Source of the DNA: Halobaculum magnesiiphilum
GTDB lineage: Archaea > Halobacteriota > Halobacteria > Halobacteriales > Haloferacaceae
Direction: 5' to 3'
Assembly: GCF_019823105.1 (NCBI RefSeq)
Contig: NZ_CP081960.1
Location: forward strand, 372,001-436,000
DNA: 64,000 nt
The notes below the pieces were generated by a model. The model was not told where the DNA came from. It saw nothing but the letters and a program-made list of their open reading frames with translations, and made no database searches. This document shows positions 3,692-20,379 of the stretch, piece by piece (position 1 is the first letter of the stretch; each line of letters opens with the position of its first letter). The position numbers and the translations under genes are program-made.

Positions 3692-3933
3692 GATACGATA
3701 CCTCCAGTGGCGGGAGTACGGGTACTGTGATGACGGCCTTGACCGTCTTCGGGGTCGATTCGAGAGGGGACGTGCTTGCCGGCGGCGCTGCCTCGTGAGA
3801 GGCGAGACATCGAGTCGCAGGCCTGACAGCGGTGGACGCGATCGACTTCATCGCCGAAGACGCGCGCGAACTGTTCGGAGACGTGGCCACCGCAGTAGCG
3901 GCACTCGGGGCGGTGGGTGGTGAGGCGATTCAT
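3688..3933 (-). CDS. Small zinc-finger protein (DUF7563-like)
   Basis: 81 residues with two CxxC knuckles: CRYCGGHVSEQFARVFGD, then VHRCQACDSMSRLSRGSAAG. This matches the layout of the small haloarchaeal zinc proteins called DUF7563, which occur widely on plasmids and in proviruses. Function unknown; the fold suggests nucleic-acid or protein binding. The ATG overlaps the previous stop (ATGA). Confidence 0.75.
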   Translation of the reverse strand: MNRLTTHRPECRYCGGHVSEQFARVFGDEVDRVHRCQACDSMSRLSRGSAAGKHVPSRIDPEDGQGRHHSTRTPATGGIVS

Positions 3934-4232
3934 TGGACCGCCTCCGTGTTCAGTGCGTCAGGGCTGGCGTGGCGAAGCTGGATGTAGAGGCTGTCGTACG
4001 TGTGGGGGTCGGGTGTGCACCACTGACAGATGGGGCCGTCGTACGCAGTGAGATCGACGGGTGTCCAATCGGTGTTGGTGTGCTGGAGCTCGGCGCGGCA
4101 GATCGGCGTGTCCGGGGCGTTCGGGTCGGGGTGGTGGGCTCGGGCGGCGCGGCGCGCGCCGATGAGGTAGTGTGCAGGCGAGTCGTCGTCGTGTCCGGCA
4201 CGTTGAAGCCGGGTGGGGCGTGTTGTGCTCAT
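3930..4232 (-). CDS. Small hypothetical protein with possible zinc ligands, first gene of operon
   Basis: 100 residues, with a CRAE...CQWC spacing (about residues 45 and 72-75) that could hold a metal. It opens the six-gene operon 4232-1199, in which nearly every gene overlaps the next by a stop/start tetranucleotide. No recognised family. Such chains of small coupled genes are usual for haloarchaeal mobile elements. Confidence 0.65.
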   Translation of the reverse strand: MSTTRPTRLQRAGHDDDSPAHYLIGARRAARAHHPDPNAPDTPICRAELQHTNTDWTPVDLTAYDGPICQWCTPDPHTYDSLYIQLRHASPDALNTEAVQ

Positions 4233-4381
4233 GTCGCTGAAGGGAGCCGAGTTTACGGCTCCTGTCAGGTTGCGACCCCACGCGGCGGTTCGGTGGACCT
4301 AGCACCGGATCGCCACAAACTGTGGGCGATGTGTAACCCGCGGAGCGTCGCATGTGGATTTCAAGATAGCCTCTACTTATA

Positions 4382-4412
4382 GTTGTTCCGGCACTATTCT
4401 AGTTCCGGAACA
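4382..4412. promoter_or_regulatory. Inverted-repeat operator upstream of winged-helix gene
   Basis: TGTTCCGG (4384-4391) faces CCGGAACA (4405-4412), and GTTCCGGAAC at 4402-4411 is itself a perfect palindrome. It lies 50-80 bases before the ATG at 4464, just behind a TATA-like CTTATA at about 4375. The same half-site recurs before the paralogous gene at 4924 (see 4938-4978), so this is probably an autoregulatory site. Confidence 0.6.
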
Positions 4413-4463
4413 GGGCTACAAATTCACCCTTCTTTTTGCAAACGTGTGAGGAATCAGTAGCAA

Positions 4464-4709
4464 ATGCCGGGTCCGAAGCCTGACGTTCCCGATCAAGAAG
4501 TGCTTCGAATGATAGCTTCGGCCCCAGACCCTGTAGTTACGTCGAGTGAACTTGCGGAGGCTCTGGATATGTCCCAGCAGGGAGCCTACAACCGGCTTTC
4601 CTCGCTGGAAGAGAATGGATTCGTACGAAGCAGAAAGGTCGGTGCGAGCGCCCGAGTATGGTGGATCACTGATACGGGTCGAAGTGAATTGCCTCCTCTC
4701 GGAAACTAA
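4464..4709 (+). CDS. Winged-helix DNA-binding protein, paralogue A
   Basis: 81 residues: VTSSELAEALDMSQQGAYNRLSSLEENGFV is a clear helix-turn-helix, followed by a wing ending in RKVGASARVWWITD. It is about 50% alike to the convergent gene 4706-4924, including the shared VGA(S/N)A.VWW end. The two genes overlap by four bases at their stops. Both carry GTTGTTCCGG-type repeats upstream, so mutual or self repression is likely. Confidence 0.85.
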   Translation: MPGPKPDVPDQEVLRMIASAPDPVVTSSELAEALDMSQQGAYNRLSSLEENGFVRSRKVGASARVWWITDTGRSELPPLGN

Positions 4710-4924
4710 TCGTCTACAAACCACCAAACGACTGCGTTGGCACCTACTTTCCGTTTCTTCACTACGCCTTGCTGGTATAGGCGGTTCAGTCGCTTGTAGC
4801 TCGCTTGCTGAGAGATCTCGAATTCGTCCATGAGATCTGAGGTAGTCATCACTGGACAGTCGAGTCTCCGAAACAATTCTTCTACGCTGGTATTGTCCGA
4901 ACTAGTTGTTTCTACGGTACTCAT
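4706..4924 (-). CDS. Winged-helix DNA-binding protein, paralogue B
   Basis: 72 residues: MTTSDLMDEFEISQQASYKRLNRLYQQGVV helix-turn-helix, then KKRKVGANAVVWWFVDD. It is the tail-to-tail partner of 4464-4709 and clearly homologous to it. The N-terminus differs (SVEELFRRLDCPV), which may separate dimerisation specificities. An inverted repeat lies 14-54 bases before its start. Confidence 0.85.
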   Translation of the reverse strand: MSTVETTSSDNTSVEELFRRLDCPVMTTSDLMDEFEISQQASYKRLNRLYQQGVVKKRKVGANAVVWWFVDD

Positions 4925-4978: not shown

Positions 4979-5027
4979 TTCGCAACGAGAACTTCCATCC
5001 CAGATTGGTGCCTTGACGGCGTAGGTA

Positions 5028-5049
5028 CCCGCGTGCTGCAACACGCGGG
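5028..5049. other. Perfect 8-bp hairpin before microprotein operon
   Basis: CCCGCGTG (5028-5035), loop of six bases, CACGCGGG (5042-5049). It lies 30 bases before the ATG at 5080. No T-run follows, so it could be an mRNA leader hairpin or a DNA site rather than a terminator. Confidence 0.4.
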
Positions 5050-5079
5050 CGATGGTTGTTCTCAGGAGAGAACTAACCG

Positions 5080-5157
5080 ATGTCAGATACGACTTTCAGC
5101 GGTGAAAACGGTATCGACGACAACCACATCCCAACGCCAGCGAGGTGGTCAGCGTGA
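5080..5157 (+). CDS. Putative 25-residue microprotein
   Basis: ATG frame MSDTTFSGENGIDDN...RWSA, whose TGA overlaps the GTG of the next frame (GTGA). The acidic composition and the coupling to two further overlapping frames are the only support. It may be a translated leader for the zinc-finger gene rather than a functional protein. Confidence 0.4.
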   Translation: MSDTTFSGENGIDDNHIPTPARWSA

Positions 5158-5276
5158 GTGCTCGCGTCTACGGCGTCACCTGCTCGGGCTGCGGCTCCTC
5201 GATGCTCCGCGGGGAGGGCGATGCCCGGATCTGCTCGCGGTGCGAGACCGAGCACGCAGTTCTTGCAGACCGATGA
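5154..5276 (+). CDS. 40-residue double zinc-knuckle protein
   Basis: Starts at GTG and reads ARVYGVTCSGCGSSMLRGEG then ARICSRCETEHAVLADR. Two CxxC pairs (CSGC, CSRC) spaced for one zinc ion are typical of haloarchaeal micro zinc-finger proteins. It overlaps both neighbours by four bases (GTGA in front, ATGA behind), so the three frames are translationally coupled. Confidence 0.65.
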   Translation: MSARVYGVTCSGCGSSMLRGEGDARICSRCETEHAVLADR

Positions 5277-5527
5277 GTACCTGCCGCGTTGAGCAGCGCC
5301 GGCAGGCCGATCGACTCGCCGACACGCTCGCGTTGAATCAGTCGGTCGTCGCCGTCGACGTGTTCGCTCCTGGTGTCGGCGCTCGCGAAGTCTGGGTCGT
5401 TGAGGCGACGTTAGATTGCGCATCGATCCCGACCGAGGTGCTGCGGACGTTGGCAGCTGGCGACGCGATCGTGGTGGATACGAGTCCGCAAGGGCCGGCG
5501 AACATGATCGTGACTGCGACGATCTGA
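5273..5527 (+). CDS. Small acidic hypothetical protein
   Basis: 84 residues from the ATG overlapping the zinc-finger stop; upstream in-frame starts are rejected because they would run through the coupled genes. The central part (VVAVDVFAPGVGAREVWVVE, then DAIVVDTSPQGPANMIVTATI) alternates hydrophobic and polar residues like a small beta-barrel or ferredoxin-like fold. No family recognised. Confidence 0.6.
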   Translation: MSTCRVEQRRQADRLADTLALNQSVVAVDVFAPGVGAREVWVVEATLDCASIPTEVLRTLAAGDAIVVDTSPQGPANMIVTATI

Positions 5528-5758
5528 GTCGGTCGCGCTTTTTTGAGTGGGGAGTTCGGTACCGGTGGTGGCACACCTGGTGGTGGGAGTGTAACCAGGA
5601 TGTATCCGGTGCGGAGAGTTCCGGACAATTCCGGAAGGTGGGAGGCACCTGTTAGCGTGCCTCAGTTGGCTGCCTGGTTCCAGATTCGGACAAACGTCTT
5701 CTGGAATGGTTTTATATTCTAAAGAATCTCCGGATAGGTTGGAACGCACATTCCAATT

Positions 5759-6177
5759 TCACCCTGACCAGAACAATTCAATCAGACCGATTGCTACTGT
5801 CGCAGCCGTCAACAGCAATATTACGATATCTTCATAGACGTCGTTGCTCGTTTCGGTCACCGGGACGCTGAGCCGGAGCGTCGACAGCTCGCTCGCCGGC
5901 GTCGGATCGATGCCGGTCTCCAGACAATACCGGAACTCTCGCCAGAAGTCGAAGTTGAAACAGGCGAGATCCCCGACTGGATAGTCCGACAGCTGGCGCG
6001 CTTGCCGGGCAAGTGGGGTGACGCGGCCGATGTGGGCGACGTCGACCGCGAGAACAGCCTCCTCGTCCCGTCGAAAGTGGGGCGTTGCGTAACCATCTCG
6101 GTCGCGACGGCGTCGTTGGCGGTTGCCTCCCACTCCAGGACACGACCGTCGTCTATAAAGTCGATGCTGAACGGCAT
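5759..6177 (-). pseudogene. Frameshifted gene of the 'M-x-FSIDF-x-DDGRV' family, copy 1
   Basis: Two frames joined near 6080 give one sensible protein of about 140 residues: it begins MPFSIDFIDDGRVLEWEA, crosses a one-base shift around TQRP/HFRRDEEAV, and ends with a membrane segment (DIVILLLTAATVAIGLIELF). The N-terminus is nearly identical to the gene at 55225. It is divergent from the winged-helix gene at 6315, exactly as copy 2 is from 54992. Function unknown; a single C-terminal anchor suggests a membrane-tethered small protein. Confidence 0.6.
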
Positions 6178-7733: not shown

Positions 7734-8672
7734 CTATCGGCCTCCTGTACCGCTCCCCGTCCACGCTTCGAGCAAGGGATCCGCGGTAGCCGACACCGTC
7801 TCACCGTCAGCTGTGACGCCCGTCCCGACGCCCTCCGGAGTCGGCGTCGACGGCGCCGGCGTCGTCTGTTCCACGCCGACCTGCGTGGCGCGTGCCGCGA
7901 GCAGCTGCCGCCAGTACGCGAACGTCGTCTGGTAGTACGCGCCGTCGTCGACGGGATAGATGAGCGTCTCGAAGTCCTCACCGACGACCCGTGGGCCCAT
8001 CCGCGTCTGCTCGCACTCCAGGTGGTGGTCGGCGACCGTCGCAACTGACTCGGTGAATTCGTTTCGTTCGTTTCGCGTACGAGTACGGGGATGTCATACC
8101 CCTCGGCGTAGGTCGCCAACCGGGCGAGAGTTCGAGCCTGAAGGGTTCTCGCGTGGGTTTCGCCGAGGGTATCGTCGGTGCGGTACTGGGCGTCGACGGC
8201 CGGCGCGACGATGAGGGCGGGTGTGTGGGGCGACGTGTCCTCGTCACGACTTGTTGCCCCACGACCGGCCGCCCCGGCGTCGGTGGTGGACATCTGGATC
8301 GACTTGTTCACTGCCGTCGGGAGATCACAGACGGCGCCGTAGTGCTGGTAGGCGGTGAATCCGCGGGCGACGTGAATTCGGTTGAGTAACCGTTGACTGG
8401 GCCTGGGGGAGTGACGTCGTCGTCGCGTGGCCGTTTGCGTCGACCCAGAAGGCGGGCCCGTCGTGCAGGAGGAGGTGGTCGAGCACGAGCGACTGCAGGA
8501 TCGGGACGCCGCGGCCTCCCTCGACGTCGAGCAGCGTGATGCCGTCGCCGAGTGACTGCAGCAGCATCTCGTCCGTAGCCGGATCGGCCTGGTCAGCGAG
8601 GGACCGATTGCGGTCGGCTCCCCGTGTCGGCTGGTCCACCGCCAATCGGTTCGACGTTGAGTGTTCTCCCAT
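7734..8672 (-). pseudogene. RecA/KaiC-like haloarchaeal ATPase gene broken by two frameshifts
   Basis: Three frames join into one protein: MGEHSTSNRLAVD...MLLQSLGDGITLLDVEGGRGVPILQSLVLDHLLLHDGPAFWVDANG (8672 to about 8390), then LLNRIHVARGFTAYQHYGAV...YRTDDTLGETHARTLQARTLARLATYAEGYDIPVLVRETNE (to about 8060), then MGPRVVGEDFETLIYPVDDGAYYQTT to 7734. This is the layout of a haloarchaeal RecA-fold family found next to DUF8156. Each shift is one base. Either the gene is decaying or the assembly carries errors here. Confidence 0.65.
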
Positions 8673-8696
8673 ACTCGACTAGAGGTCCACATTCCC

Positions 8697-8731
8697 GATA
8701 AGCCGCGGCGTGTCGCTTCCGCGTTTCAGGG
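8697..8731 (-). promoter_or_regulatory. Shared promoter element, copy 3
   Basis: Minus strand: CCTGAAACGCGGAAGCGACA continuing CGCCGCGGCTTATCGG. It has the same 14-base core GGAAGCGACACGCC as copies at 6204 and 55165 and the same following CTTATC box, which sits about 25 bases before the ATG at 8672 and so probably is the TATA element. Confidence 0.6.
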
Positions 8732-8823
8732 AATCGATCAGAATACAACGAGTGGTGTCGCTGTTTGCGTGTTTTTTCGTGTTAGGATGAACACTTCCGA
8801 GAACAATTCCGATATGAGGTGCC

Positions 8824-8879
8824 TCCTCCGTTAACCAACAATTGGATGCATGTGCCCTCTGTCTGTTGGTTAATACGTA
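8824..8879 (+). repeat. Direct repeat A with internal 10-bp inverted repeat
   Basis: TTAACCAACA (8831-8840) and TGTTGGTTAA (8864-8873) are perfect inverted arms around a 23-base loop; the flanks CCTCCG before and TACGT after, and TGGATG in the loop, are shared with repeat B at 11059. The two lie on either side of the DUF262/HNH gene. Confidence 0.75.
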
Positions 8880-8954
8880 AGGAGCTCAGTAGGCCGGTGT
8901 CTCAGTTTGATTTCTGTGAGAACTCTAAGGAAACTGCGACTTGCAGTTCTCTCT

Positions 8955-10868
8955 TTACTTCACGTATTTGTCTATCAAGTAATCGGTAATCTGTTCTTCG
9001 CGAGCCTGAATAAACGCCTGTGCGTTCTCCGGGGTCGGCTCGATATCGGGATACTGATTGACACGTTGGATACGCTCAGCCTCGGCGTTGCCGAGGTCGT
9101 CCAACCAGTCGTGGGGCCACTGGTCGCTTTTGATCTCTTCGTTCATCTCGTGTGGCAACAGCTGTAGATTCCCGATTCGATTAAGATCAACAGTCTCGCC
9201 AATAGATTCAGATACGGATTCTGCCCTGCTTTTCGGGTAGATGTGGTCAACCGAGTAGTCGCCAATACTGGTGGGCGTCGATTGTGTATATGATTCCTCA
9301 ATGAGGCCGAGTACTGCCGTGACATCTGTGTCGGTGAATACAGGCTCTCCTGGGCTGCTCTCGTAACGAGCGTTGGCTATGACTCGACGGATATCTTCAG
9401 CAGATGGGCTGATGTTCTCCGATTCAAATAGCTCCTCGCCTGGGAAAACGATGGGTTCGTTGGGTTCTGGTTCCCACTCGCGAAGGTATCGCATCCAGTT
9501 GCGGCACTTGCCGTAGGTCAGAACCTGGTAGTACTTGTTCAGCAAGAGGGCTCTTGCGACGAACTGGAAAACACTCTCGCGGTTCGCGTCGGAGACCTCA
9601 GCATCCGGATTCTGGTAATAGAACACGCCAAGTAGCGCGAAGATGGGCATCGTGTTCATAACCGAGCTCCGAATCCCGCTCTCGATTACTGTCTGGAAAG
9701 CCTTCTCGAGCGATGTCCGAAACCACTCGAATCGCCGTCCGGCGACAACGGGCTCATTATACAGCCATCGCTCGCGCATCTCGTCCATCCTTTCTTCGTC
9801 GATACTGCTAAGATTGCTGCGGAGGAGGTCCGTTCCGACTAAGTATGCTGTATATCGGAGGAACAGCTTCCGGTCAATTTCTTGCTCATACTCAGGGAAC
9901 TTCTGTTTAAATTCGTCAATCCAATCTTGGATGACCTCCCTAGGATTGATCCGCTCGTCCTCCTCTTCTGCGTACGGCCAATAACTCATTAGCTTTGAGA
10001 GGAGGAGCTGGTAGGGCTTCGGATCAGAGCCTTCCATGTTCAGCCTTGTGAATATCTCGGGGATTTCGGATCTATCCTTATTCGTATTGTCAGTTTCGAG
10101 ATCGTCCTGTAGAACGTTGCTCGTAATGTCTCTCGCGACGGCCATCGAAATACTGCGCAGCTGGTAGCGGGTTTCGTTGTCCGCCCTCAATTCGGCGGTG
10201 TCCACGTATTCATCGACGACTTCGCTAAGTGCTCTTCCCTCAAGTACCGTGGAGTTCCCGGAGCCCCCGTCGTTGCCTCCGTTCCATAACTCCCCGACCG
10301 GCATCCACAGGTGTCGCGTGTCGCCGGTCATGGTATAGCCGGTCTCGTCCGTTCCTCCAAACTTCCCTGTCGATTTGAATTCAAATCCGTAGTCGCCTGC
10401 TGTATCGTCGCGATCGTACTCTGGGTGACCGAATAGGTCAACACACAGCCGCTGGCCTTCCCAGTACTGGAGCTGATCACTGGGCTTCCCCCGTCCGCCA
10501 TTATATACTATAATTCCCCCCTCGACACCGATATAGAGCGAGTTCAAGCGCTGCTGGCCGTCTATAATCAGAATCTCCGGTTCTTTGTCTTCAACCTCTT
10601 GATTGTAGAGGTCGTATTCCGCCAAAACAGGATCCGGTGGCCGATAGTCATCGGCAACGTACATCCGCAGGAAATTATACGAGTTGTAGTCGCTGATATT
10701 GGCCGCTCGAACTCTCCATTCAGTTATGGCTCCGATTGGATAGTCTCGAATCAAGGAATCGAACAGTTCTTCAATCTGCCTGGGATTCCAGACAAACTCC
10801 CGCTGGAGGCCGGGAAGAAAGATATGGTCGTTTATTTCAGACAAATAATCCGAGACCTGTCTGGACAT
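8955..10868 (-). CDS. GmrSD/BrxU-like type IV restriction enzyme (DUF262 plus HNH)
   Basis: About 637 residues, full length for the family. N-terminal DUF262 (ParB-like NTPase) motifs: LPGLQREFVWNPRQIEELF near residue 20 and ILIIDGQQRLNSLY near 100-113. C-terminal DUF1524 HNH motif: YSVDHIYPKSRAES near residue 540, followed by NRIGNLQLLPHEMNEEIKSD. These enzymes use NTP and cut DNA with modified bases, typically glucosylated hydroxymethylcytosine of phages. I start at the ATG at 10868; a GTG two codons upstream is possible. It stands alone, flanked by direct repeats A and B, which suggests it was inserted as a cassette. Confidence 0.88.
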   Translation of the reverse strand: MSRQVSDYLSEINDHIFLPGLQREFVWNPRQIEELFDSLIRDYPIGAITEWRVRAANISDYNSYNFLRMYVADDYRPPDPVLAEYDLYNQEVEDKEPEILIIDGQQRLNSLYIGVEGGIIVYNGGRGKPSDQLQYWEGQRLCVDLFGHPEYDRDDTAGDYGFEFKSTGKFGGTDETGYTMTGDTRHLWMPVGELWNGGNDGGSGNSTVLEGRALSEVVDEYVDTAELRADNETRYQLRSISMAVARDITSNVLQDDLETDNTNKDRSEIPEIFTRLNMEGSDPKPYQLLLSKLMSYWPYAEEEDERINPREVIQDWIDEFKQKFPEYEQEIDRKLFLRYTAYLVGTDLLRSNLSSIDEERMDEMRERWLYNEPVVAGRRFEWFRTSLEKAFQTVIESGIRSSVMNTMPIFALLGVFYYQNPDAEVSDANRESVFQFVARALLLNKYYQVLTYGKCRNWMRYLREWEPEPNEPIVFPGEELFESENISPSAEDIRRVIANARYESSPGEPVFTDTDVTAVLGLIEESYTQSTPTSIGDYSVDHIYPKSRAESVSESIGETVDLNRIGNLQLLPHEMNEEIKSDQWPHDWLDDLGNAEAERIQRVNQYPDIEPTPENAQAFIQAREEQITDYLIDKYVK

Positions 10869-11056
10869 GGTCACCAGAACGGAAGATGAGTATTTATACT
10901 CTGTCGTCGCCCATCGAATTCCGGGTGTATTCTCCCCCGGATCAACTCGAAGGCCTGGCTGAGCTGCTGAGTTACGGTGTGGGTGAGTTAGTCGCCGAAT
11001 TTTGGGATCGTGCGTCCGGTTCTGTGAAGTTTCCAGAATCAGACTTGTCTAGTACT

Positions 11057-11109
11057 GCCTCCGTTAACCAACACTCTATGGATGAGGGAGCGTATGTTGG
11101 TTAAGTACG
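11057..11109 (+). repeat. Direct repeat B with internal 10-bp inverted repeat
   Basis: TTAACCAACA (11064-11073) and TGTTGGTTAA (11095-11104), loop 21 bases, same orientation as repeat A and with shared CCTCCG, TGGATG and TACGT. It lies between the DUF262/HNH gene and the SRAP gene. Confidence 0.75.
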
Positions 11110-11169
11110 TTGGTTCCACGAAGTTCCTGTGCGACCACGTTGAAGATGCCTCCCTCCGAACTCTCTGGT

Positions 11170-11856
11170 ATGTGTGGCCGGAACTCGCTCTTCATCGACC
11201 AAGCAGACCTCGAGGCCCGCTTCGATGCCGAGGTCGTCGCGGACGGCGGGTACACACCCCGATACAATATCGGGCCTGGCGACAACCTCCACATCGTCAC
11301 GAACGAGGCTCCAGATGAGATCGACGCCTCCCACTGGGGGCTGATTCCGTTCTGGGCGGATGAGCCCGAGGAGGGCATCATCAACGCCCGCTCCGAGACC
11401 GCCGCCGAGAAACGCGTCTTCCAAGAGGCGTGGGAATCCCGTCCCTGTTTGGCCCTCTCGTCGGGATTCTACGAGTGGAAATCGCCGAACGGCGGCTCGA
11501 AACATCCCTACCGGATTCACCGCGAGGACGACCCCGCGTTCGCGATGGCCGGGCTCTGGGACGTCAGGGCGGGCGAGGACGAGGCGATCTCGTGCGTCAC
11601 GATTCTCACGACGGAGCCGAACGACCTGATGAACTCAATCCACGACCGGATGCCGGTCGTCATCCCGAGGGACGCCGAATCCGACTGGCTCGCCGCAGAT
11701 CCGGACACCCGCAAGGAACTGTGTCAGCCGTATCCGAAGGACGATCTAGACGCTTACGAGATCTCGACGCGAGTTAACAACCCCGGCAACGACGATCCCC
11801 AGGTCATCGAGCCGCTGGACCACGAGCAATCGGGGCTCGGAGAGTTCAGTTCCTGA
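11170..11856 (+). CDS. SRAP-domain protein (HMCES/YedK family)
   Basis: 228 residues from the ATG that places Cys at position 2, the residue that forms a thiazolidine crosslink with abasic sites after removal of Met1. Other family hallmarks are present: GYTPRYNIGPG, HWGLIPFW, INARSET, SGFYEW and HDRMPVV. These proteins shield abasic sites in single-stranded DNA. Upstream in-frame TTG starts were rejected because they would bury Cys2. It neighbours repeat B and has no obvious operon partner; SRAP genes also occur in defence and mobile contexts. Confidence 0.92.
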   Translation: MCGRNSLFIDQADLEARFDAEVVADGGYTPRYNIGPGDNLHIVTNEAPDEIDASHWGLIPFWADEPEEGIINARSETAAEKRVFQEAWESRPCLALSSGFYEWKSPNGGSKHPYRIHREDDPAFAMAGLWDVRAGEDEAISCVTILTTEPNDLMNSIHDRMPVVIPRDAESDWLAADPDTRKELCQPYPKDDLDAYEISTRVNNPGNDDPQVIEPLDHEQSGLGEFSS

Positions 11857-11950
11857 TCGGTGGCGGCATCACGGTCACTGCATAGGCGACGCCGCTGCCG
11901 AATCTACGAGCGAGTACTCTCGATTCCGACTCGTGCAAGGAAGAATTCTG

Positions 11951-13693
11951 CTACGGTGGGAACCAACCTGCGAGGTCGCCTACGTGAATGTCGACTAACC
12001 CCAATACAGTTCCAACCAGTATCACCCCTACCAGTAGGTAGTAAACGAACAGGTCGTATGCGATAGTATATTCGAACTCGAACTTACCACGAGTCCACTC
12101 TATGCAGTCGAAGAACCACTGAAATCGAATATCGTCCACGTCAGCCTTCAGCTGGTATTCTTCTTTCTCGTTCTCGTTGAAGAACTTGCCATAGAAGTTC
12201 ACTGCGGAGCTTCTATCCTCAACCAGCATATCCAACTGGTGGTGAATTCCCCTTATTCTCCGAAGGACCACCAAGCCGTATATGAATATTAACGAGAGGA
12301 GAATCGTGAAGACGGTATTCGAATCGACCGACTCTGGAAGCCTGTAATATACTGTTGCTCCGATTACGAGTATGAATGCGATAGTCCTGAAGATGTCTCT
12401 CGACAAGCTGTTGATCAACTGAGAGCGGAGGTCAGAGAATCTACTGTTGGTCTCGAAAGCACTGTCGATCAACTCTTGACGAAACTCAAAGAAGTCGTCC
12501 GTGGTCTGCTCAACGTAGTACTTGTAATTCGATTTAATAGAGCCATGAATCTCGCTCATATTCCCAATCACGTTCGACAGATCCTGAGCGAACAGAGTGG
12601 TGACGTTTCTGACTATCGGTAGCCGTGTCTCTGGCTCGTTTCCTTTGATATACGTCCATTCGAATAGGGAGTGAAAGTCCTCAATATCCAAGTCTTCTAT
12701 CTGGAACGTTGTCTCTGATTGGTCAGCATCACGAACCAGAATCTCATCTGAAGAGGCTTGGATACGACCCTGAATTAATTGCTTCCCGCTAATCTGAAGC
12801 TCCCACATACCATCATCCTGCTGGGCACTACTGGTGATGGAGAGGATCGAGAACAAGATAGCATGGCTTTCGAATAGAGCTACAACCCGTTCTTCCTCAC
12901 TCGTGGCAGGATCCGAGCCGAATTTGAAGAAGGAGGGTGGAAGATACACCGACGACACGTTCTCGATGAGTGATTGTGTTGCGACAGAAGTAACGATATC
13001 CTCCCAAGTACTTCGACGACTCGTTACCCACTCCGATAGCTGGTCTACCGAACCCGATCCTGTAACAGCAAAGTCGTCACTGCTCATCATTGAGTCGAAC
13101 TCATGAATCACGAAAGCCAGCCTATCTCCGTCATCAAGATATTTTTCTCTGAAGTTCTCAAAAGACACGTTCGAGATACGTCTCTCGAAAAAATCGAATG
13201 AGAAGTAGAACTGCAGGCTCAGGTCTTCGAAGTTATACTCCTCCTCCAGCTCCCGCACGATTCCTTGCTTTTCGATTCCAAAGTCAACACTGAGTTCTAT
13301 ATCTTCCCGAGGAATCAGAACCTCTAATGTATCTATTAGATCGCTTACACTGCGAAGACGGTCATTTGACAGACTTCGAATGGCATTCTCAGTTGCCTCG
13401 TCATCGTCGTACAAGTCGCTGATATCATATCCGTCACCAGAAATGGGATCTGACTGGATAACGCCAAGATTCGGATCCCAGTCCACATCGTATCGATCTT
13501 CTCCAGCATCAACGTCTATCTCGAAAGAACCAGGATTGAACGACTCTGACAGTGTCTCAACATCCTCAATTAGCTCAGGTATCTGGTCTTCTTCAATTTG
13601 AGTCGAATCTATAGAATATCTGCTATTCTGTTCTGTCGAAAATTCGTCCCACTCTTCCAAGAACGTCGAGATAGCTAAATCTAATTCGAGCAT
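11951..13693 (-). CDS. Large membrane-anchored protein, partner of NdpA-like protein
   Basis: 580 residues. The first 420 are acidic and soluble, without a motif I recognise. Three hydrophobic segments follow near the end: IFRTIAFILVIGATVYYRL, TVFTILLSLIFIYGLVVL and a last one around YLLVGVILVGTVLGLV. A cytoplasmic or external sensor domain tethered by C-terminal helices is the simplest reading. It starts 14 bases behind 13708-14784, so the pair is an operon. The AT-rich DNA contrasts with the neighbours and suggests transfer. A two-gene membrane plus DNA-associated pair recalls the Kiwa defence system in outline only. Confidence 0.8.
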   Translation of the reverse strand: MLELDLAISTFLEEWDEFSTEQNSRYSIDSTQIEEDQIPELIEDVETLSESFNPGSFEIDVDAGEDRYDVDWDPNLGVIQSDPISGDGYDISDLYDDDEATENAIRSLSNDRLRSVSDLIDTLEVLIPREDIELSVDFGIEKQGIVRELEEEYNFEDLSLQFYFSFDFFERRISNVSFENFREKYLDDGDRLAFVIHEFDSMMSSDDFAVTGSGSVDQLSEWVTSRRSTWEDIVTSVATQSLIENVSSVYLPPSFFKFGSDPATSEEERVVALFESHAILFSILSITSSAQQDDGMWELQISGKQLIQGRIQASSDEILVRDADQSETTFQIEDLDIEDFHSLFEWTYIKGNEPETRLPIVRNVTTLFAQDLSNVIGNMSEIHGSIKSNYKYYVEQTTDDFFEFRQELIDSAFETNSRFSDLRSQLINSLSRDIFRTIAFILVIGATVYYRLPESVDSNTVFTILLSLIFIYGLVVLRRIRGIHHQLDMLVEDRSSAVNFYGKFFNENEKEEYQLKADVDDIRFQWFFDCIEWTRGKFEFEYTIAYDLFVYYLLVGVILVGTVLGLVDIHVGDLAGWFPP

Positions 13694-13707
13694 TGAATCC
13701 CACGACT

Positions 13708-14784
13708 CTATCCTTGGAAGTCTTGGTCGAGTTCGTCCCCACGGATGGTAACGACGTACTCTCCGTCTTCGTGTTCAGGTCGCTGTATATCTATTTTGTC
13801 TCCATCCGCATCAGACATCTTTGCCTTGATTTTTATTCCGTCGATATCGTACACGACGTACTTCGTGGTATTGTTTGGATCAATCTGAACTTCGGTCTCA
13901 CCTTCCTCGTAGAGCATTTCATCCACTTCATCCTCGTCGTAGTCTTCGCCAAGTGCTTGTTCCGCTGCTTCGTGGACAGTACCACCGTCCGCTACGCCAT
14001 CCGTGCCTTGGATGGTGGTTCTGGCATCCTGTACCTCATCAGGACCGAGCACAGTACCGTCTTGTTCCTGCTTGATTCCAGATAGTCCGTTCAGGATGGT
14101 CTGACTTTGCTCCCGACTCCCGCTGCTCGTTACGCAGCCCATAAATTCCTCGAAGTATTCAGAATCAGAGTCTTCCTGAAGGAACTTCACGTCTCCATCT
14201 AAATTGAACACATTGTCGTCGTTGAGGGGATCAAATATAGGGTATGTACAGCCTTTCTGAAGGTCATCTGTAGGAGGAAATGCGTTCTCAATCTCCTCAT
14301 ATTCTAACTGCCTGGTGTCTCGATCCAGTATCGGTCGTTCCTCACTATCCACGACATCCAGCTTGAGAATGCCAACAAACGGCTCACCATCGTTCACGGC
14401 CTGGATTGTAAACAGATACCCTCTGGATGTACGACCGTCCATGTGAGTGATTAGTCTGTTCTTCAGAGATTCGGATAAATCCTCGAACTCAGTATAATCA
14501 GAGCTATCCTCGTCATCCAAATCCAGATCCAGAATTCTATCTAAACGTTCCTGAGTTTGGTCTCCCGCATCGCTATCTCCAGCAGTACCGTTAGAAAAAT
14601 GCCCAACCGTTACTTTGCCATTGTCCTCTTTGTTGATCACACGAGTTACATAACCGACGAAGATTCCCATAACTCGGTCATCAATGTCGACTGTCCGAGT
14701 ACTCACCACCCAATCATCTTCGTCTCCAGATTCAATCTCGTTTGATACAGGCGAGAAAGCGACTGCGTTGATATTAATGACCAT
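13708..14784 (-). CDS. NdpA/nucleoid-associated-like protein
   Basis: 358 residues. The segment RTSRGYLFTIQAVNDGEPFV then GILKLDVVD resembles the central part of the nucleoid-associated NdpA/YejK family, which binds DNA; an N-terminal start MVININAVAFSP and a helix SLKNRLITHMDG fit that layout. The C-terminal 90 residues form a beta-rich domain (TKYVVYDIDGIKIKAKM, YVVTIRGDELD). It is the first gene of the pair with 11951-13693. The family call rests on motif reading alone. Confidence 0.65.
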   Translation of the reverse strand: MVININAVAFSPVSNEIESGDEDDWVVSTRTVDIDDRVMGIFVGYVTRVINKEDNGKVTVGHFSNGTAGDSDAGDQTQERLDRILDLDLDDEDSSDYTEFEDLSESLKNRLITHMDGRTSRGYLFTIQAVNDGEPFVGILKLDVVDSEERPILDRDTRQLEYEEIENAFPPTDDLQKGCTYPIFDPLNDDNVFNLDGDVKFLQEDSDSEYFEEFMGCVTSSGSREQSQTILNGLSGIKQEQDGTVLGPDEVQDARTTIQGTDGVADGGTVHEAAEQALGEDYDEDEVDEMLYEEGETEVQIDPNNTTKYVVYDIDGIKIKAKMSDADGDKIDIQRPEHEDGEYVVTIRGDELDQDFQG

Positions 14785-14869: not shown

Positions 14870-15897
14870 CTACTCAGCGAGCGTGGGAGACGGGTTGTCG
14901 ATGGCTGTGTATTCCCGATCCCGGCTGGATCCGTTTGCTTCGAGGAGATTGTATTGAGTCATCTTCGACAGATACGCACGAACGGTTCGCTTGGTACGCG
15001 GATCACTGACCTCCTCCGTATAGCGCTCGCGAATCTCGCTCGGGCCGAGCGGGCCGTGCTCGCGCACGATGTCGTAGACGACCCGCTGGTGCGGCGTGAG
15101 TGAATCGAGGCTTTTCTGCTTGATTTGGGCCCGAGCATCCTCGGCGGCGTCAAGGAGAATGTCGTCGGTGATGCGCTCGTGGTTCTCACGGTCGGCCTTG
15201 CCAGCGGCCGTTCGGAGAATGCCGATTGCAATGCGGGCGTTGGCGGCGGCCGCGTCAGCGACCCGGTAGAGCTGGTCGTCGGTGATGGCGTCCTCGTCGA
15301 GCCCCCACTTCGCCCGCGCACTCAGAATGTCGTACAGCTGCTCGTCGTGGTACTTGTCCATCCGGACGTGTTCGCTGGAGCGCAGGCGGCTCACGAGGCG
15401 GTCGTCGACACGGCTGAACAGCTCCTCTTCCTTGTTCGCGATGCAGATGATCGCGAACTGAGGGAGGCTGTGGAGGTCGTAGATGACGCTGGGGTCCTCG
15501 AGCTGATCGACCTCGTCAAGGATGATGACCGTTCGCGGGCCGTCGTGTTGCTGGAGGCGGTCGACGAGTTCATCGTGTGGTGTCGACTGCCGGTGGATGT
15601 CAATGGTCGCGCCGAGGTCGTCGAGGATCTGGTAGAGCGTACGGAACCGGGTGTAGTTGCGCCAGCAGTTGACGTAGATGGCCTCGACGTCGAGGACTTC
15701 TTCCCGAAGTCGTTCCGTGACGAATTTCGAGATGCACGTCTTCCCCGTCCCGCTGGGTCCGGTGACGATAGCTGTGTCGGCTGGTTCTCCTTCGTGATGG
15801 GCTCGAGGACGCTAGAGAGGTGGTTGACTTCGGCGTCGCGATGCTCAACTTCCCGAGGGACGAACCCGGCCCGGAGAACGCGAGCATCGCGGATCAT
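14870..15897 (-). pseudogene. cdc6: orc1/cdc6 replication initiator with one-base frameshift
   Basis: The N-terminus MIRDARVLRAGFVPREVEHR...LEPIT (15897 to about 15795) and the rest are in different frames. After the shift the protein reads GEPADTAIVTGPSGTGKT (Walker A), VIILDEVDQL (Walker B), IICIANKEEELFSRVDDRLVSR (sensor 1 region) and a C-terminal winged helix (LTPHQRVVYDIVREHGPLG). All Orc1/Cdc6 parts are present, about 340 residues. One missing base near 15795 explains it. If the shift is real, the initiator is dead; if not, it is an intact replicon or element initiator. Confidence 0.85.
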
Positions 15898-15948
15898 CTG
15901 TTTCTGAAAGACTGATTTTCGGGCAAGTCATAAAAGCGTGACCGGGTC

Positions 15949-16044
15949 GTTTCCAGGAAGATGTTATATGGCTACTGAGAGCTGTTTTTCGACCGGACGC
16001 TGTCAGTTGATTCTTGTTCTCGGAAATCACCTACTTCCGGAAAC
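15949..16044. repeat. Possible origin-recognition-like inverted motifs
   Basis: GTTTCCAGGAA (15949-15959) and TTCCGGAAAC (16035-16044) form an inverted pair in the intergenic region beside orc1/cdc6. Haloarchaeal origin boxes also contain a GTTTCCA-like core and flank such genes, but neither the G-rich end nor a clear AT-rich unwinding region is seen here, so this is tentative. Confidence 0.25.
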
Positions 16045-16131: not shown

Positions 16132-16776
16132 GTGAAGCACCGGCAAAGGGTCGAACACTTCCGCACAGACCTGCTTAACTGGGCGGAGGACAACCTGCGG
16201 TCATTCCCTTGGCGGGACACGACCGACCCGTACGAGGTCCTGGTCGCAGAGATCCTTCTCCAGAAGACAGCTGCTGAGAAGGTGGCACCCATCTATATCG
16301 AACTTCTCGCAACCTATCCCTCACTAAACGATCTCGCGGAGGCGGACCGGGAGCGTCTGGGGGACATCATCTATTCGCTCGGATTCCAGAACCAGCGGAG
16401 TGACGCCCTGATCAAGATTGGCCAAGAACTTCGAGACTCCGGTGTACCCAGCGAGTTCCAGGACCTATTGGAGCTTCCATACGTCGGCCGGTACGCAGCG
16501 AACGCAACTCTGTGCTTCGCATATGACGAGCCTCAACCGATTGTCGACGCGAACGTGGTCCGAGTTTACAACCGAATCTTCGACAAAGATTTCGACTACC
16601 GTGATGAGGATACATGGTCATTCGCTGCCGCCGTCCTCCCAGCGGAGGATGCTCGCAGGTTCAATCTCGCGATTTTGGACTTCGCCGCCATGGTCTGCCA
16701 TCCGAAGGTCCCAGACTGCGACAAGTGCTTCTTCACCGATTCCTGCCACTACTACCAGGCGAACAAGACCGGTTAG
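16132..16776 (+). CDS. Mig-type G/T mismatch DNA glycosylase (HhH-GPD, 4Fe-4S)
   Basis: 214 residues starting at GTG. HhH-GPD fold: helix-hairpin-helix LLELPYVGRYAANATLCFAY with Tyr121 where endonuclease III has Lys and MutY has Ser, then IVDANVVRVYNRIF with catalytic Asp139. Tyr plus VDAN is the signature of Mig thymine-DNA glycosylase of Methanothermobacter, whose pair is Tyr126/Asp144. The iron-sulphur cluster is Cys189-x6-Cys196-x2-Cys199-x5-Cys205. No MutY C-terminal domain. It would remove T from G/T mispairs caused by deamination of 5-methylcytosine, fitting the cytosine-5 methyltransferase 0.5 kb downstream. Confidence 0.88.
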   Translation: MKHRQRVEHFRTDLLNWAEDNLRSFPWRDTTDPYEVLVAEILLQKTAAEKVAPIYIELLATYPSLNDLAEADRERLGDIIYSLGFQNQRSDALIKIGQELRDSGVPSEFQDLLELPYVGRYAANATLCFAYDEPQPIVDANVVRVYNRIFDKDFDYRDEDTWSFAAAVLPAEDARRFNLAILDFAAMVCHPKVPDCDKCFFTDSCHYYQANKTG

Positions 16777-17146
16777 GAATCCACGTTCGCCGCTGGTTCC
16801 TTGACCTCCTCAAGCACAGCCCACTCCAGACCGGCAGCGAGGAACATGTACAGGTAGTCGTACCAGAACTCGAAATTCACGTCCTGCTCCGCATACTCCA
16901 TCAGGTGCTCGTTGGCTGCTCCCTTGTAGAACGCGTCTGGGTAGGCGTCGTCCAACTCCTGCAGTTCGTTAAGGACGTCGCTGGTCGTGTGCTTCAACAG
17001 GTACGAATTGTGGGTCAGGTTGTGCACGACGTCGTCGATATCCTTCTCTGTTCGTCTGCCCGTTTCTGCGCCAGCCGATCGAACTCCCGGACCTTCTCCT
17101 CCATCGAATCGGCGGTCATAACCGGCTCCCATTCGTCGTTGTACAT
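16773..17146 (-). pseudogene. Small acidic protein, apparently frameshifted
   Basis: A start at 17146 gives MYNDEWEPVMTADSMEEKVREFDRLAQKRADEQ, and the other frame then continues EKDIDDVVHNLTHNSYLLKHTTSDVLNELQEL...WYDYLYMFLAAGLEWAVLEE. Both halves have haloarchaeal composition while the alternatives do not, so one shift near 17050 is likely. About 125 residues, helical, no family recognised. It converges with the glycosylase (stops overlap by four bases) and lies between it and the methyltransferase. Confidence 0.5.
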
Positions 17147-17267
17147 CGTTACTTCCGTCTTGCTTTGCCGGTAACATGAATGTTCGCAGCCCAGGGTCTA
17201 TTCCACGGGTACGGGCCGCTGTGATTACCGGATTGATGCAAGACGGGCGTCAGACAGCGTCACCAAA

Positions 17268-17300
17268 CGTTTTATTATAAATCTAGTTCACGTTTGCCAC
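17268..17300 (+). promoter_or_regulatory. TATA promoter of methyltransferase operon
   Basis: ACGTTTTATTATAAAT is centred about 25 bases before the ATG at 17301, the spacing of a leaderless haloarchaeal transcript. It would drive the methyltransferase and the overlapping GHKL gene together. Confidence 0.65.
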
Positions 17301-18449
17301 ATGGATATTGCCGGCGTTGATTTGTTCTGCGGCGTCGGAGGGTTGACTCACGGGTTTGAGAGGGCTGGAATCCCTGTTGCTGCCGGAATTGACGTCGACC
17401 CCGACTGCCGGTATCCCTACGAGGAAAACAACGATGCAAAGTTCGTAGAGGCTGACGTCTCCGAGATGTCCAGCGAGGATGTTGCCGACCTGTTCCCGGA
17501 CGGCAGCTTCAAAATCCTCGCAGGCTGCGCGCCCTGCCAGCCGTTTTCGAACTACAACAATGGCGTGGATAGCTCGGAGATGGATGACTGGGCGTTACTC
17601 ACGGAATTCGGTCGCCTGGTACAGGATATCGAACCGGACATCGTGGCAATGGAGAACGTGCAGGAGATCCGCAATCACCGGGTGTACTCCGACTTCATAG
17701 ACACCCTGTTCAAAGCCGGATACGACATCTCCATCAACAAGGTGGACTGCGAGAAATACGGCGTCCCCCAATCCCGGCGGCGGCTCCTGGTGCTTGCCTC
17801 CAAGCACAGCGACATCAGCCTGATTGATCCGACGCATACCGGGTACAACGGCCACGTCACCGTTGAGGAGACGATCGGGAACGGCAAGCTGAATCCGATA
17901 GAAGCAGGCGAGGCCGATGACGAAGATCCGCTGCACCGGACGCAGACCTTATCCGAAATCAACCTGGAACGAATCCGGCAATCTACGCCCGGCGGGACAT
18001 GGCGGGACTGGGATGAGGAACTGATTCTGGACTGCCACAAGAAAGACAGCGGCAGTTCGTACGACAGCGTGTACGGCCGCATGGAATGGAAAGGCACCGC
18101 ACCCACCATCACCACGCAGTTCTACGGCTACGGTAGCGGCCGTTTCGGCCACCCGGAGCAGGACCGCGCGATCTCCCTCCGCGAGGGAGCAATGCTGCAG
18201 ACGTTTCCCAAAGACTATTCCTTCGTCGAGGAAGAAACAGACGAGATATCATTCAAGCAGATCGGGCGGTTCGTCGGCAACGCAGTACCCGTTCGGATTG
18301 CCGAAGTGGTCGGTGAAAGCATAAATCAACACCTCAACAATATCAATGTCACAGACAGAATCGAAACCCAAGACCGAGGAGGAAACGCCGTACGAGATGT
18401 CGCTCAGCCTCAACGTACTGAATCATCTGGGGCTGAACCTCTACAGTAA
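17301..18449 (+). CDS. DNA (cytosine-5) methyltransferase, DrmMII-like
   Basis: 382 residues with all conserved motifs in order: I GVDLFCGVGGLTHGF (residues 5-19), IV GCAPCQPFS with nucleophile Cys79, VI MENV (117-120), VIII QSRRR (157-161), a target-recognition region about 190-290, and X VGNAVPV near 330. It transfers a methyl group from S-adenosylmethionine to C5 of cytosine and should mark host DNA. DISARM class 2 uses such an enzyme (DrmMII), and drmA/B/C/E-like genes lie 12 kb downstream. The C-terminal 35 codons overlap the next gene by 104 bases, an unusually long overlap that ties the two genes together. Confidence 0.93.
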   Translation: MDIAGVDLFCGVGGLTHGFERAGIPVAAGIDVDPDCRYPYEENNDAKFVEADVSEMSSEDVADLFPDGSFKILAGCAPCQPFSNYNNGVDSSEMDDWALLTEFGRLVQDIEPDIVAMENVQEIRNHRVYSDFIDTLFKAGYDISINKVDCEKYGVPQSRRRLLVLASKHSDISLIDPTHTGYNGHVTVEETIGNGKLNPIEAGEADDEDPLHRTQTLSEINLERIRQSTPGGTWRDWDEELILDCHKKDSGSSYDSVYGRMEWKGTAPTITTQFYGYGSGRFGHPEQDRAISLREGAMLQTFPKDYSFVEEETDEISFKQIGRFVGNAVPVRIAEVVGESINQHLNNINVTDRIETQDRGGNAVRDVAQPQRTESSGAEPLQ

Positions 18450-20379
18450 CGTACCCGCCGTTCTCTCAGAGGCTGTTGCGAACGCATGGGACGCCGACGC
18501 CGAGAACGTTGACGTCTCGATCTATCCCGAGGAGGAACGCATCGAGATCGTTGACGACGGCCACGGCATGGACCTGTACGACGTGAACAATCGGTATCTC
18601 CGCGTCGGATACCGGCGGCGGGAGGACGAGGACCGGCCGAACCGAACACCGGAGCACAACCGGCCGGTTATGGGACGGAAGGGCATCGGGAAGCTCTCCC
18701 TGTTCTCCATCGCCGAGACCGTAGAGGTGTACACGACGAAGGACGGGGAGCAGCACGCCTTCCGGATGATTGTCGACGAGATCAAGGAGGCCATCGGGGA
18801 AGAAGAACCGGGGAACGATGCGATGCAGCCTCAGAGCTACGTGCCGACCCAGATCGATGACTTCCCCGACGACCACAATCAAGGGACCAAAATCGTTCTC
18901 AAGAACCTGAAGAAACGGGTTCACACAGCAGAAAGCGCCCTGCGGAAGCGTCTGGCCCGACGGTTCAGTATTCTCGGGTCGGAGTACGATTTCACCGTCC
19001 GGGTGAATGGCGAACCTATCGATATCACCGACCGCGACTACTTCCACAAAATCCAATTTCTCTGGACATTCGGTGATGACAGGTACGTCGACTACTGTCG
19101 CGACGCGAAGCTTGAGGAACACGAACACCGGTCCTCAACCACCGAGAGTGGGTACGAGGTGGAGGGTTGGATCGGGACGGTTGAGAAGCCGCGTGACCTC
19201 GTTGAGGATATCCCCGGCACTGGCTCGGAGACGGATGACCTGAACAAAATCTCGTTGATGGTCCGCGGGAAGATGGCGAAGGCCGATCTGATGGAGGATT
19301 TCAACGATAGCCGGATGGTCACGAAGTACCTCGTGGGCGAGATCCACGCCGACTTCCTGGACTACGACGACGAGGAGGACATCGCTACCTCGAACCGGGA
19401 GGACATGGTCAAGGACGATCCCCGGTACCAGGAACTGCTCGAATTCATCCGCGGCGAACTCAACCACATCGCGAACCGGTGGGGGCACCTCCGTAATGAG
19501 CAGGGTTCGGAAGAAGCGAGGCAGATCGGTGTAATCGATATGTGGTACGAAAGCCTGTCACCGGATAACCGGGAGCAGGCAAAGAAGCTGTTCGGGAAGA
19601 TCAACCAGATGGCGGTCAACGACGAGAACGATCGGAAGGAACTGTTCAAGTACGGCGTCCTCGCGTTTGAGAACCTGAAGTACAAGCAGAACCTGGAGCA
19701 ACTGGACTCCGCCTCGACCGAGGACGCCGGGAAGGTGGCCCGTATCTTGGAAGACCTGGAGGATATCGAATCCACCCGATTCCACCAGACCGTAACTCAG
19801 CGTCTTCGCGTGATCGAGAAACTGCAGCAGAAACTGGAGGACAACACCCTGGAGACAGTGCTGCAGGAACATATCGGCGAGCATCCGTGGCTATTGGATC
19901 CGTCGTGGGAACGTACCGCGGGCACCGATCTGATGGAGGACTGGGTTCGGATCGACTTCACCGAAGAAGAGGACGAGGCAGCCGGCCGGCTGGATTTGAA
20001 ACACATCCGCACCGCCGGGAAGCACGTCATTATCGACCTCAAGCGGCCAGACTACAAGCCTACCCAGTCCGAGCTCGAGGAGCACGCCGAACAGTACCGG
20101 GATACGATCAGTTCACTGCTCAGCAGGAGCGGCCGGGCGGACGAACCGGTGGAGGTCGTGTTCGTCGTCGGTACCCAGCCGGTAGACGAGGAAACCGAGG
20201 AACCGGTCCGTCACCCGAACAAATCGCTGGACGTGGACAACGCTCGGGTTCAGCTGTACGAGAACTTGCTCAAATCGTCCCGCGAGGCCTACGAGGAGTA
20301 CATTCAGAACCGGCCGGAGGCCGGCCGTGTGTCCCGGCTGCTTGACGAAATCGATGCAGGGGATACGCTGAACGACTGA
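18346..20379 (+). CDS. GHKL (MORC/MutL-like) ATPase fused to PD-(D/E)XK nuclease-like domain
   Basis: 677 residues. GHKL motifs: N-box SEAVANAWDADA (Glu42, Asn46, Asp49), G1 VDDGHGM (69-75), G2 MGRKGIGKLSLFS (109-121), followed by a transducer-like domain. Near residue 505 a nuclease-like domain begins with EHIGEHPWLLDPSWERT, then GRLDLKHI...KHVIIDLKRPDY, in which Asp and DxK have PD-(D/E)XK spacing as in Shedu/NucS-like enzymes. Prokaryotic MORC relatives in restriction loci are known; the ATPase probably clamps DNA and licenses cutting. It is translationally coupled to the methyltransferase by a 104-base overlap and converges on 20393. Confidence 0.85.
   Translation: MSQTESKPKTEEETPYEMSLSLNVLNHLGLNLYSNVPAVLSEAVANAWDADAENVDVSIYPEEERIEIVDDGHGMDLYDVNNRYLRVGYRRREDEDRPNRTPEHNRPVMGRKGIGKLSLFSIAETVEVYTTKDGEQHAFRMIVDEIKEAIGEEEPGNDAMQPQSYVPTQIDDFPDDHNQGTKIVLKNLKKRVHTAESALRKRLARRFSILGSEYDFTVRVNGEPIDITDRDYFHKIQFLWTFGDDRYVDYCRDAKLEEHEHRSSTTESGYEVEGWIGTVEKPRDLVEDIPGTGSETDDLNKISLMVRGKMAKADLMEDFNDSRMVTKYLVGEIHADFLDYDDEEDIATSNREDMVKDDPRYQELLEFIRGELNHIANRWGHLRNEQGSEEARQIGVIDMWYESLSPDNREQAKKLFGKINQMAVNDENDRKELFKYGVLAFENLKYKQNLEQLDSASTEDAGKVARILEDLEDIESTRFHQTVTQRLRVIEKLQQKLEDNTLETVLQEHIGEHPWLLDPSWERTAGTDLMEDWVRIDFTEEEDEAAGRLDLKHIRTAGKHVIIDLKRPDYKPTQSELEEHAEQYRDTISSLLSRSGRADEPVEVVFVVGTQPVDEETEEPVRHPNKSLDVDNARVQLYENLLKSSREAYEEYIQNRPEAGRVSRLLDEIDAGDTLND

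Follow-up and report, generated by a model that had tools for sequence, protein, structure and literature searches.

A two-gene unit of 2.8 kb in the window, that is, the whole 64,000-nucleotide stretch of Halobaculum magnesiiphilum DNA analysed here, encodes a protein of the NA37 (YejK/NdpA) family and a membrane protein with three transmembrane helices, and the two genes recur side by side and in the same order in defence islands and in distantly related archaea (Table 1). Based on this context we consider it probable that the pair has a defence function as such; location in a defence island is by itself no proof of defence. The original prediction had described an AT-rich unit comprising an NdpA-like protein and a three-helix membrane protein next to restriction and SRAP genes, and had proposed it as a new candidate defence pair. 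The profile matches, hydropathy, base composition and recurrence reported below uphold that description. The prediction had named a failure of the pair to recur elsewhere as a ground for refutation, and the pair does recur, in order, in distant archaea and in defence islands.

Table 1. Positions of the pair, of associated genes and of related genes in the window and in other loci (L numbers).
Locus	Feature	Coordinates	Strand	Remarks
Window	NA37 (YejK/NdpA family) protein gene	13708..14784	(-)	358 aa; first in pair
Window	Membrane partner gene	11951..13693	(-)	580 aa; second in pair
Window	Intergenic gap of pair	13694..13707	(-)	14 bp
Window	GmrSD-type restriction enzyme (PADLOC HEC-05)	8955..10874	(-)	Neighbour, outside pair
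Window	Type II RM: HhH-GPD/nicking endonuclease-like gene, C5 DNA methylase, BbrUII/HgiDII-family restriction enzyme	16132..20379	(+)	Neighbour, outside pair
Window	Orc1/Cdc6-like gene	14870..15960	(-)	Lid and C-terminal part, 14870..15394
L025	HEC-05			Neighbours of pair
L027, L032	Type I RM			Neighbours of pair
L028	Type IIG with SNF2 helicase			Neighbours of pair
L029	HmaB-like methylase with OLD/GajA-like ATPase			Neighbours of pair
L030	Interval between second brxC copy and pglX	8491..11239		Holds the pair
L030	Type 5 BREX			Neighbours of pair
L031	HEC-06 with methylase			Neighbours of pair
L059	Type IIG			Neighbours of pair
L060	STAND-type nuclease-NTPase-TPR-like ORF	10300..12876		Right after the pair of G434
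L062	Solo NA37 gene	3803..4846		Clostridial phage-like plasmid
L063	Solo NA37 gene	4983..5915		Clostridial phage-like plasmid

The membrane gene of the window copy starts 14 bp downstream of the NA37 gene, and in the 11 other loci the two genes overlap by as much as 11 bp or lie as much as 14 bp apart (-11 to +14 bp across the 12 loci in all), from which we infer that the two genes are probably co-transcribed. A Shine-Dalgarno-like AGGAGGT lies upstream of the ATG of the NA37 gene. GC content is 0.468 in the pair and 0.583 in the window as a whole; among the relatives, the GC content of the pair was below that of its flanks in all nine cases checked (0.44-0.52 versus 0.54-0.59). Since the window copy shares 96% DNA identity over 2.9 kb with the copy of Halorussus litoreus, which belongs to another family, the pair has undergone recent horizontal transfer. 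The dN/dS values between relatives, wherever dS could be estimated, were 0.05-0.23, and both genes are therefore under purifying selection. The Orc1/Cdc6-like gene of the window appears to be broken: the open frame covers just the lid and C-terminal part, and what seems to be the N-terminal part is in a different frame. This region has 90% DNA identity with Halorussus litoreus.

The 358-aa protein scores 33.1 bits with the Pfam family NA37 (PF04245), to which Escherichia coli YejK/NdpA belongs and whose gathering cut-off is 24.6 bits, and all ten of its relatives that were scanned also exceeded the PF04245 cut-off. Its identity to YejK is about 13%. In a structural comparison of its predicted model (pLDDT 71.0, built with 10 sequences), YejK (9be2) was the top match and the sole one with a Foldseek E-value under 0.001 (3.9e-5), and VIA aligned the two over 267 residues (Z 13.7, rmsd 8.2). 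The next three VIA ranks were all chains of KwaB, the DNA-binding component of the Kiwa defence system (9mtn_B, Z 5.2; 9mrx_D, 5.0; 9nyu_A, 4.5), followed by a non-KwaB chain at 4.1. Residues 1-216 of the model pair with KwaB residues 16-194, and 9mtn_B aligned over 132 residues with an rmsd of 4.0, a weak match on a model of pLDDT 71. We regard this likeness as weak but specific, and as a lead: YejK-type NA37 proteins and KwaB may have a common fold, with no KwaB signal in the sequence of the NA37 protein (hhalign probability 0.1%). No evident catalytic motif was seen on inspection of the sequences and alignments of the NA37 protein and the membrane protein. Two characterized NA37 proteins, YejK and StaR, are nucleoid-associated and modulate topoisomerases (PMC10053502), and a third, NdpA2, modulates chromatin on the mobile element ICE PAPI-1 and controls that element's own transfer (PMC8565334). 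Solo NA37 genes, which have no membrane partner, also occur on clostridial phage-like plasmids (L062 and L063), near genes for a single-strand binding protein and for terminase or RusA.

The 580-aa partner had no match in Pfam, NCBIfam, PADLOC (E up to 5) or PHROGs (E up to 0.1). It consists of a soluble part of about 430 residues, a long helix and three membrane helices, with hydrophobic segments by hydropathy at approximately residues 434-452, 459-477 and 549-567, all within the last 150 residues and at equivalent positions in all of its relatives. The charge distribution suggests that the N-terminus lies inside. The AlphaFold2 model of this protein (pLDDT 71.6) gave nothing with Foldseek at E <= 0.001. 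A GHKL ATPase in the N-terminal part was considered, as several topoisomerase II/MORC chains aligned at Z ~3, but was dropped since the alignment showed no conserved nucleotide-binding motif.

In VIA the long helix and transmembrane hairpin of this model aligned with the divalent-cation channel CorA over 126 residues (Z 8.5, rmsd 3.8), a Z value that for helical arrangements is in the chance range according to VIA's own note. We reject homology to CorA based on that helical background, on the lack of a match to a CorA profile in Pfam and on the absence of a GMN motif from the TM1-TM2 loop in the alignment. The CorA-like passage of a long helix into a transmembrane hairpin would, however, fit a mechanism of abortive infection, in which the NA37 protein, on sensing viral DNA or an altered DNA topology, would activate the membrane protein, and the latter would oligomerize via the long helix and open or disrupt the membrane. 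Since StaR and YejK modulate topoisomerases (PMC10053502), DNA topology is a plausible signal for such a mechanism. Against it are the points just named, together with the third transmembrane helix, and we consider abortive infection unlikely.

Among 341 haloarchaeal genomes the membrane gene was found in 11 and the NA37 gene in 11, with both present in nine (hypergeometric P ~2e-14 for such co-occurrence by chance), and in each of these nine genomes, which represent different families, the genes were adjacent and in the same order. Relatives of the membrane protein span 10 haloarchaeal genera. The exceptions to this pairing were in part decayed or incomplete copies, namely an NA37 gene truncated at about residue 230 (G114), a membrane gene fragment with a stop (G072) and a short fragment (G331). 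The other exception (G173) was a weak NA37-like match (E 1e-8) with no membrane partner by tblastn, which was left out of the pair count. Nine further genomes sampled from the genus of the window lacked the pair. The family name and the nucleoid association of YejK (PMC10053502) would be consistent with a housekeeping role for the pair, in attaching the nucleoid or replicating DNA to the membrane, but a unit that is carried by only about 3% of haloarchaeal genomes, is missing from those nine congeners, is AT-rich and horizontally moved, and has decayed in G114 and G072 does not have the distribution expected of such a role, which we regard as highly improbable.

The pair also extends beyond the haloarchaea, in three genomes of the same phylum (G450, G434 and G631). 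In G450 it is complete, with identities of about 20-26%. In G434 the NA37 gene is followed, at a 1-bp overlap, by the gene for a 574-aa membrane protein that scored 16.7 bits with the HMM as compared to no more than 2.4 bits for 200 decoys derived from its own sequence by shuffling (199) or reversal (one), and 40.4 in hhalign as compared to no more than 21.5 for 100 shuffles. This protein has three transmembrane helices at matching positions and is, by sequence comparison, a distant relative. In G631 the NA37 gene is followed by the start of a membrane protein, similar by eye, at the contig end. NA37 genes are uncommon in the phylum, with 5 of 393 genomes having one. In G640 the place of the membrane gene downstream is taken by what, by eye, is a RelA/SpoT-like gene. 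The sole plasmid record found was from Haloarcula marina, a plasmid of which carries the pair with 84-86% identity; the membrane proteins of G450 and G434 gave no matches when used as plasmid queries. Viral contigs and phage records contained no relatives of either protein, a result that is neutral for the defence reading.

The genes around the pair are those of defence systems (Table 1). In the window the restriction and SRAP genes were confirmed by profile matches, the BbrUII/HgiDII-family enzyme at 1e-240 with NCBIfam and the HhH-GPD gene as a nicking endonuclease with PADLOC, and a SprT-like gene is also present. With a threshold of E <= 1e-30, the 54 neighbour proteins taken from eight pair loci gave matches to 153 PADLOC models. 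As a control, eight further loci were picked by hand in the same genomes with their content unseen, and none of their 67 proteins had a match. The surroundings of the pair in G450 are mainly ordinary genes, with one PDDEXK gene close by. The ORF directly after the G434 pair resembles, by eye, a STAND-type protein; its one match in PADLOC was weak (PDC-M54A, 2.4e-6).

This context also bears on the possibility that the NA37 protein is an accessory chromatin regulator of islands or plasmids with a membrane tether, comparable to NdpA2, and that the pair has no direct immune role. Precedents for this are the control by NdpA2 of the transfer of its own element, PAPI-1 (PMC8565334), the solo NA37 genes of the clostridial plasmids and the presence of one archaeal pair on a plasmid. 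However, what the pair loci have in common is defence genes and not transfer genes, with partners that vary by locus, and at one locus the pair is cargo within a BREX operon. We therefore consider regulation of this kind improbable, if less so than housekeeping.

At that locus (L030) a type 5 BREX operon holds the pair between its second brxC copy and pglX. A survey of the brxC-pglX interval in 20 haloarchaeal BREX loci found it to be empty or short in some and to hold varied cargo in others. Judged from the opening stretch of each sequence, the cargo is an OLD-like ATPase at L084, a PIN/AbrB toxin-antitoxin-like pair at L080 and an HD hydrolase at L079. Two loci (L083 and L085) have true Kiwa in this slot. 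In Kiwa, a membrane complex, the KwaB component binds injected DNA and, without cutting it, halts replication and late transcription (review, PMC12904381). As both Kiwa and the NA37 pair are found in the brxC-pglX slot, the two can occupy equivalent positions, and the common slot is circumstantial support for a role similar to that of Kiwa. In haloarchaea a KwaB match was present in 12 of 194 genomes, with a KwaA-like gene just upstream in most of those read; for the copy at L044, both KwaA and KwaB were confirmed with the PADLOC models.

Of the possible defence mechanisms, a membrane-tethered block of DNA is the best fit because the pair combines a protein of a DNA-associated type with a membrane protein that has a large cytoplasmic domain. 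The pair would be a mobile accessory module directed against viruses or plasmids. By analogy with YejK and StaR, its NA37 protein would associate with DNA, and the large cytoplasmic domain of the membrane partner may interact with the NA37 protein and keep it on the inner side of the membrane. With a trigger, a point of action and an antiviral effect all presumed, both proteins would then act on DNA that enters the cell or replicates near the membrane, and its replication or transcription would be blocked. Such a module, with a membrane-anchored, DNA-associated NA37 protein and Kiwa-like in outline, is a reading that we put forward tentatively and place below a defence function as such. We are doubtful about a broader proposal, namely that the pair is a novel archaeal immune system of two genes, built on a nucleoid-protein fold that YejK and KwaB would share and that would have become linked on two or more occasions to unrelated membrane proteins, as a general strategy against incoming DNA. 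If these expectations are correct, the pair would add a so far undescribed member to the few non-CRISPR defence systems that have been characterized in archaea, and would give an immune role to the poorly understood NA37/YejK family. It would also point to Kiwa as a single instance of a broader scheme that ties DNA-associated proteins to the membrane. At 2.8 kb the pair is small, its natural hosts are cultivable haloarchaea, and the two genes are amenable to testing jointly and singly.

Of the known systems, Kiwa is the one that the original prediction had named as a parallel in outline, with the reservation that sizes and sequences differ. The reservation was correct and the outline stands, with KwaB the next-best structure after YejK (Z 5.2, weak), but membership of Kiwa is rejected for both proteins by profiles and hhalign. 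The pair had no match to DUF4868 (PF16162) or to PADLOC KwaB, there is no KwaB in the window's genome, and the membrane protein had no PADLOC KwaA match and an hhalign probability of 1% against haloarchaeal KwaA. The likeness is that of two genes, for a membrane protein and a putative DNA-associated protein, that can occupy the same slot in haloarchaeal type 5 BREX; in addition, the NA37 model weakly resembles KwaB in structure over its residues 1-216. The differences are that neither protein is related by sequence to KwaA or KwaB, that the membrane protein has a large soluble part and 580 residues whereas KwaA has about 190, and that the order is reversed, with KwaA before KwaB in Kiwa but the NA37 gene first in the pair.

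Neither protein matched a family in PADLOC-DB 2.0.0 at E up to 5, a comparison that covers catalogues up to 2023, and searches of a largely open-access literature turned up no paper that connects NdpA/YejK with a defence pair. The CorA channel resembles the predicted membrane protein in its long helix running into a transmembrane hairpin; the membrane protein differs in having three transmembrane helices and a larger, unrelated soluble part, and in lacking the profile match and the GMN motif. NdpA2, likewise of the NA37 family, is carried by a mobile element, ICE PAPI-1 (PMC8565334), but its partner is the ribbon-helix-helix regulator TprA and not a membrane protein. The NA37 protein is closest to E. 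coli YejK/NdpA and Streptococcus pneumoniae StaR, based on its PF04245 score and on YejK as its best structural match. Unlike these chromosomal housekeeping proteins, it is accessory and has a fixed membrane partner. The pair is thus a candidate membrane-plus-DNA-protein defence pair, distinct from Kiwa, one component of which belongs to the known NA37 family.
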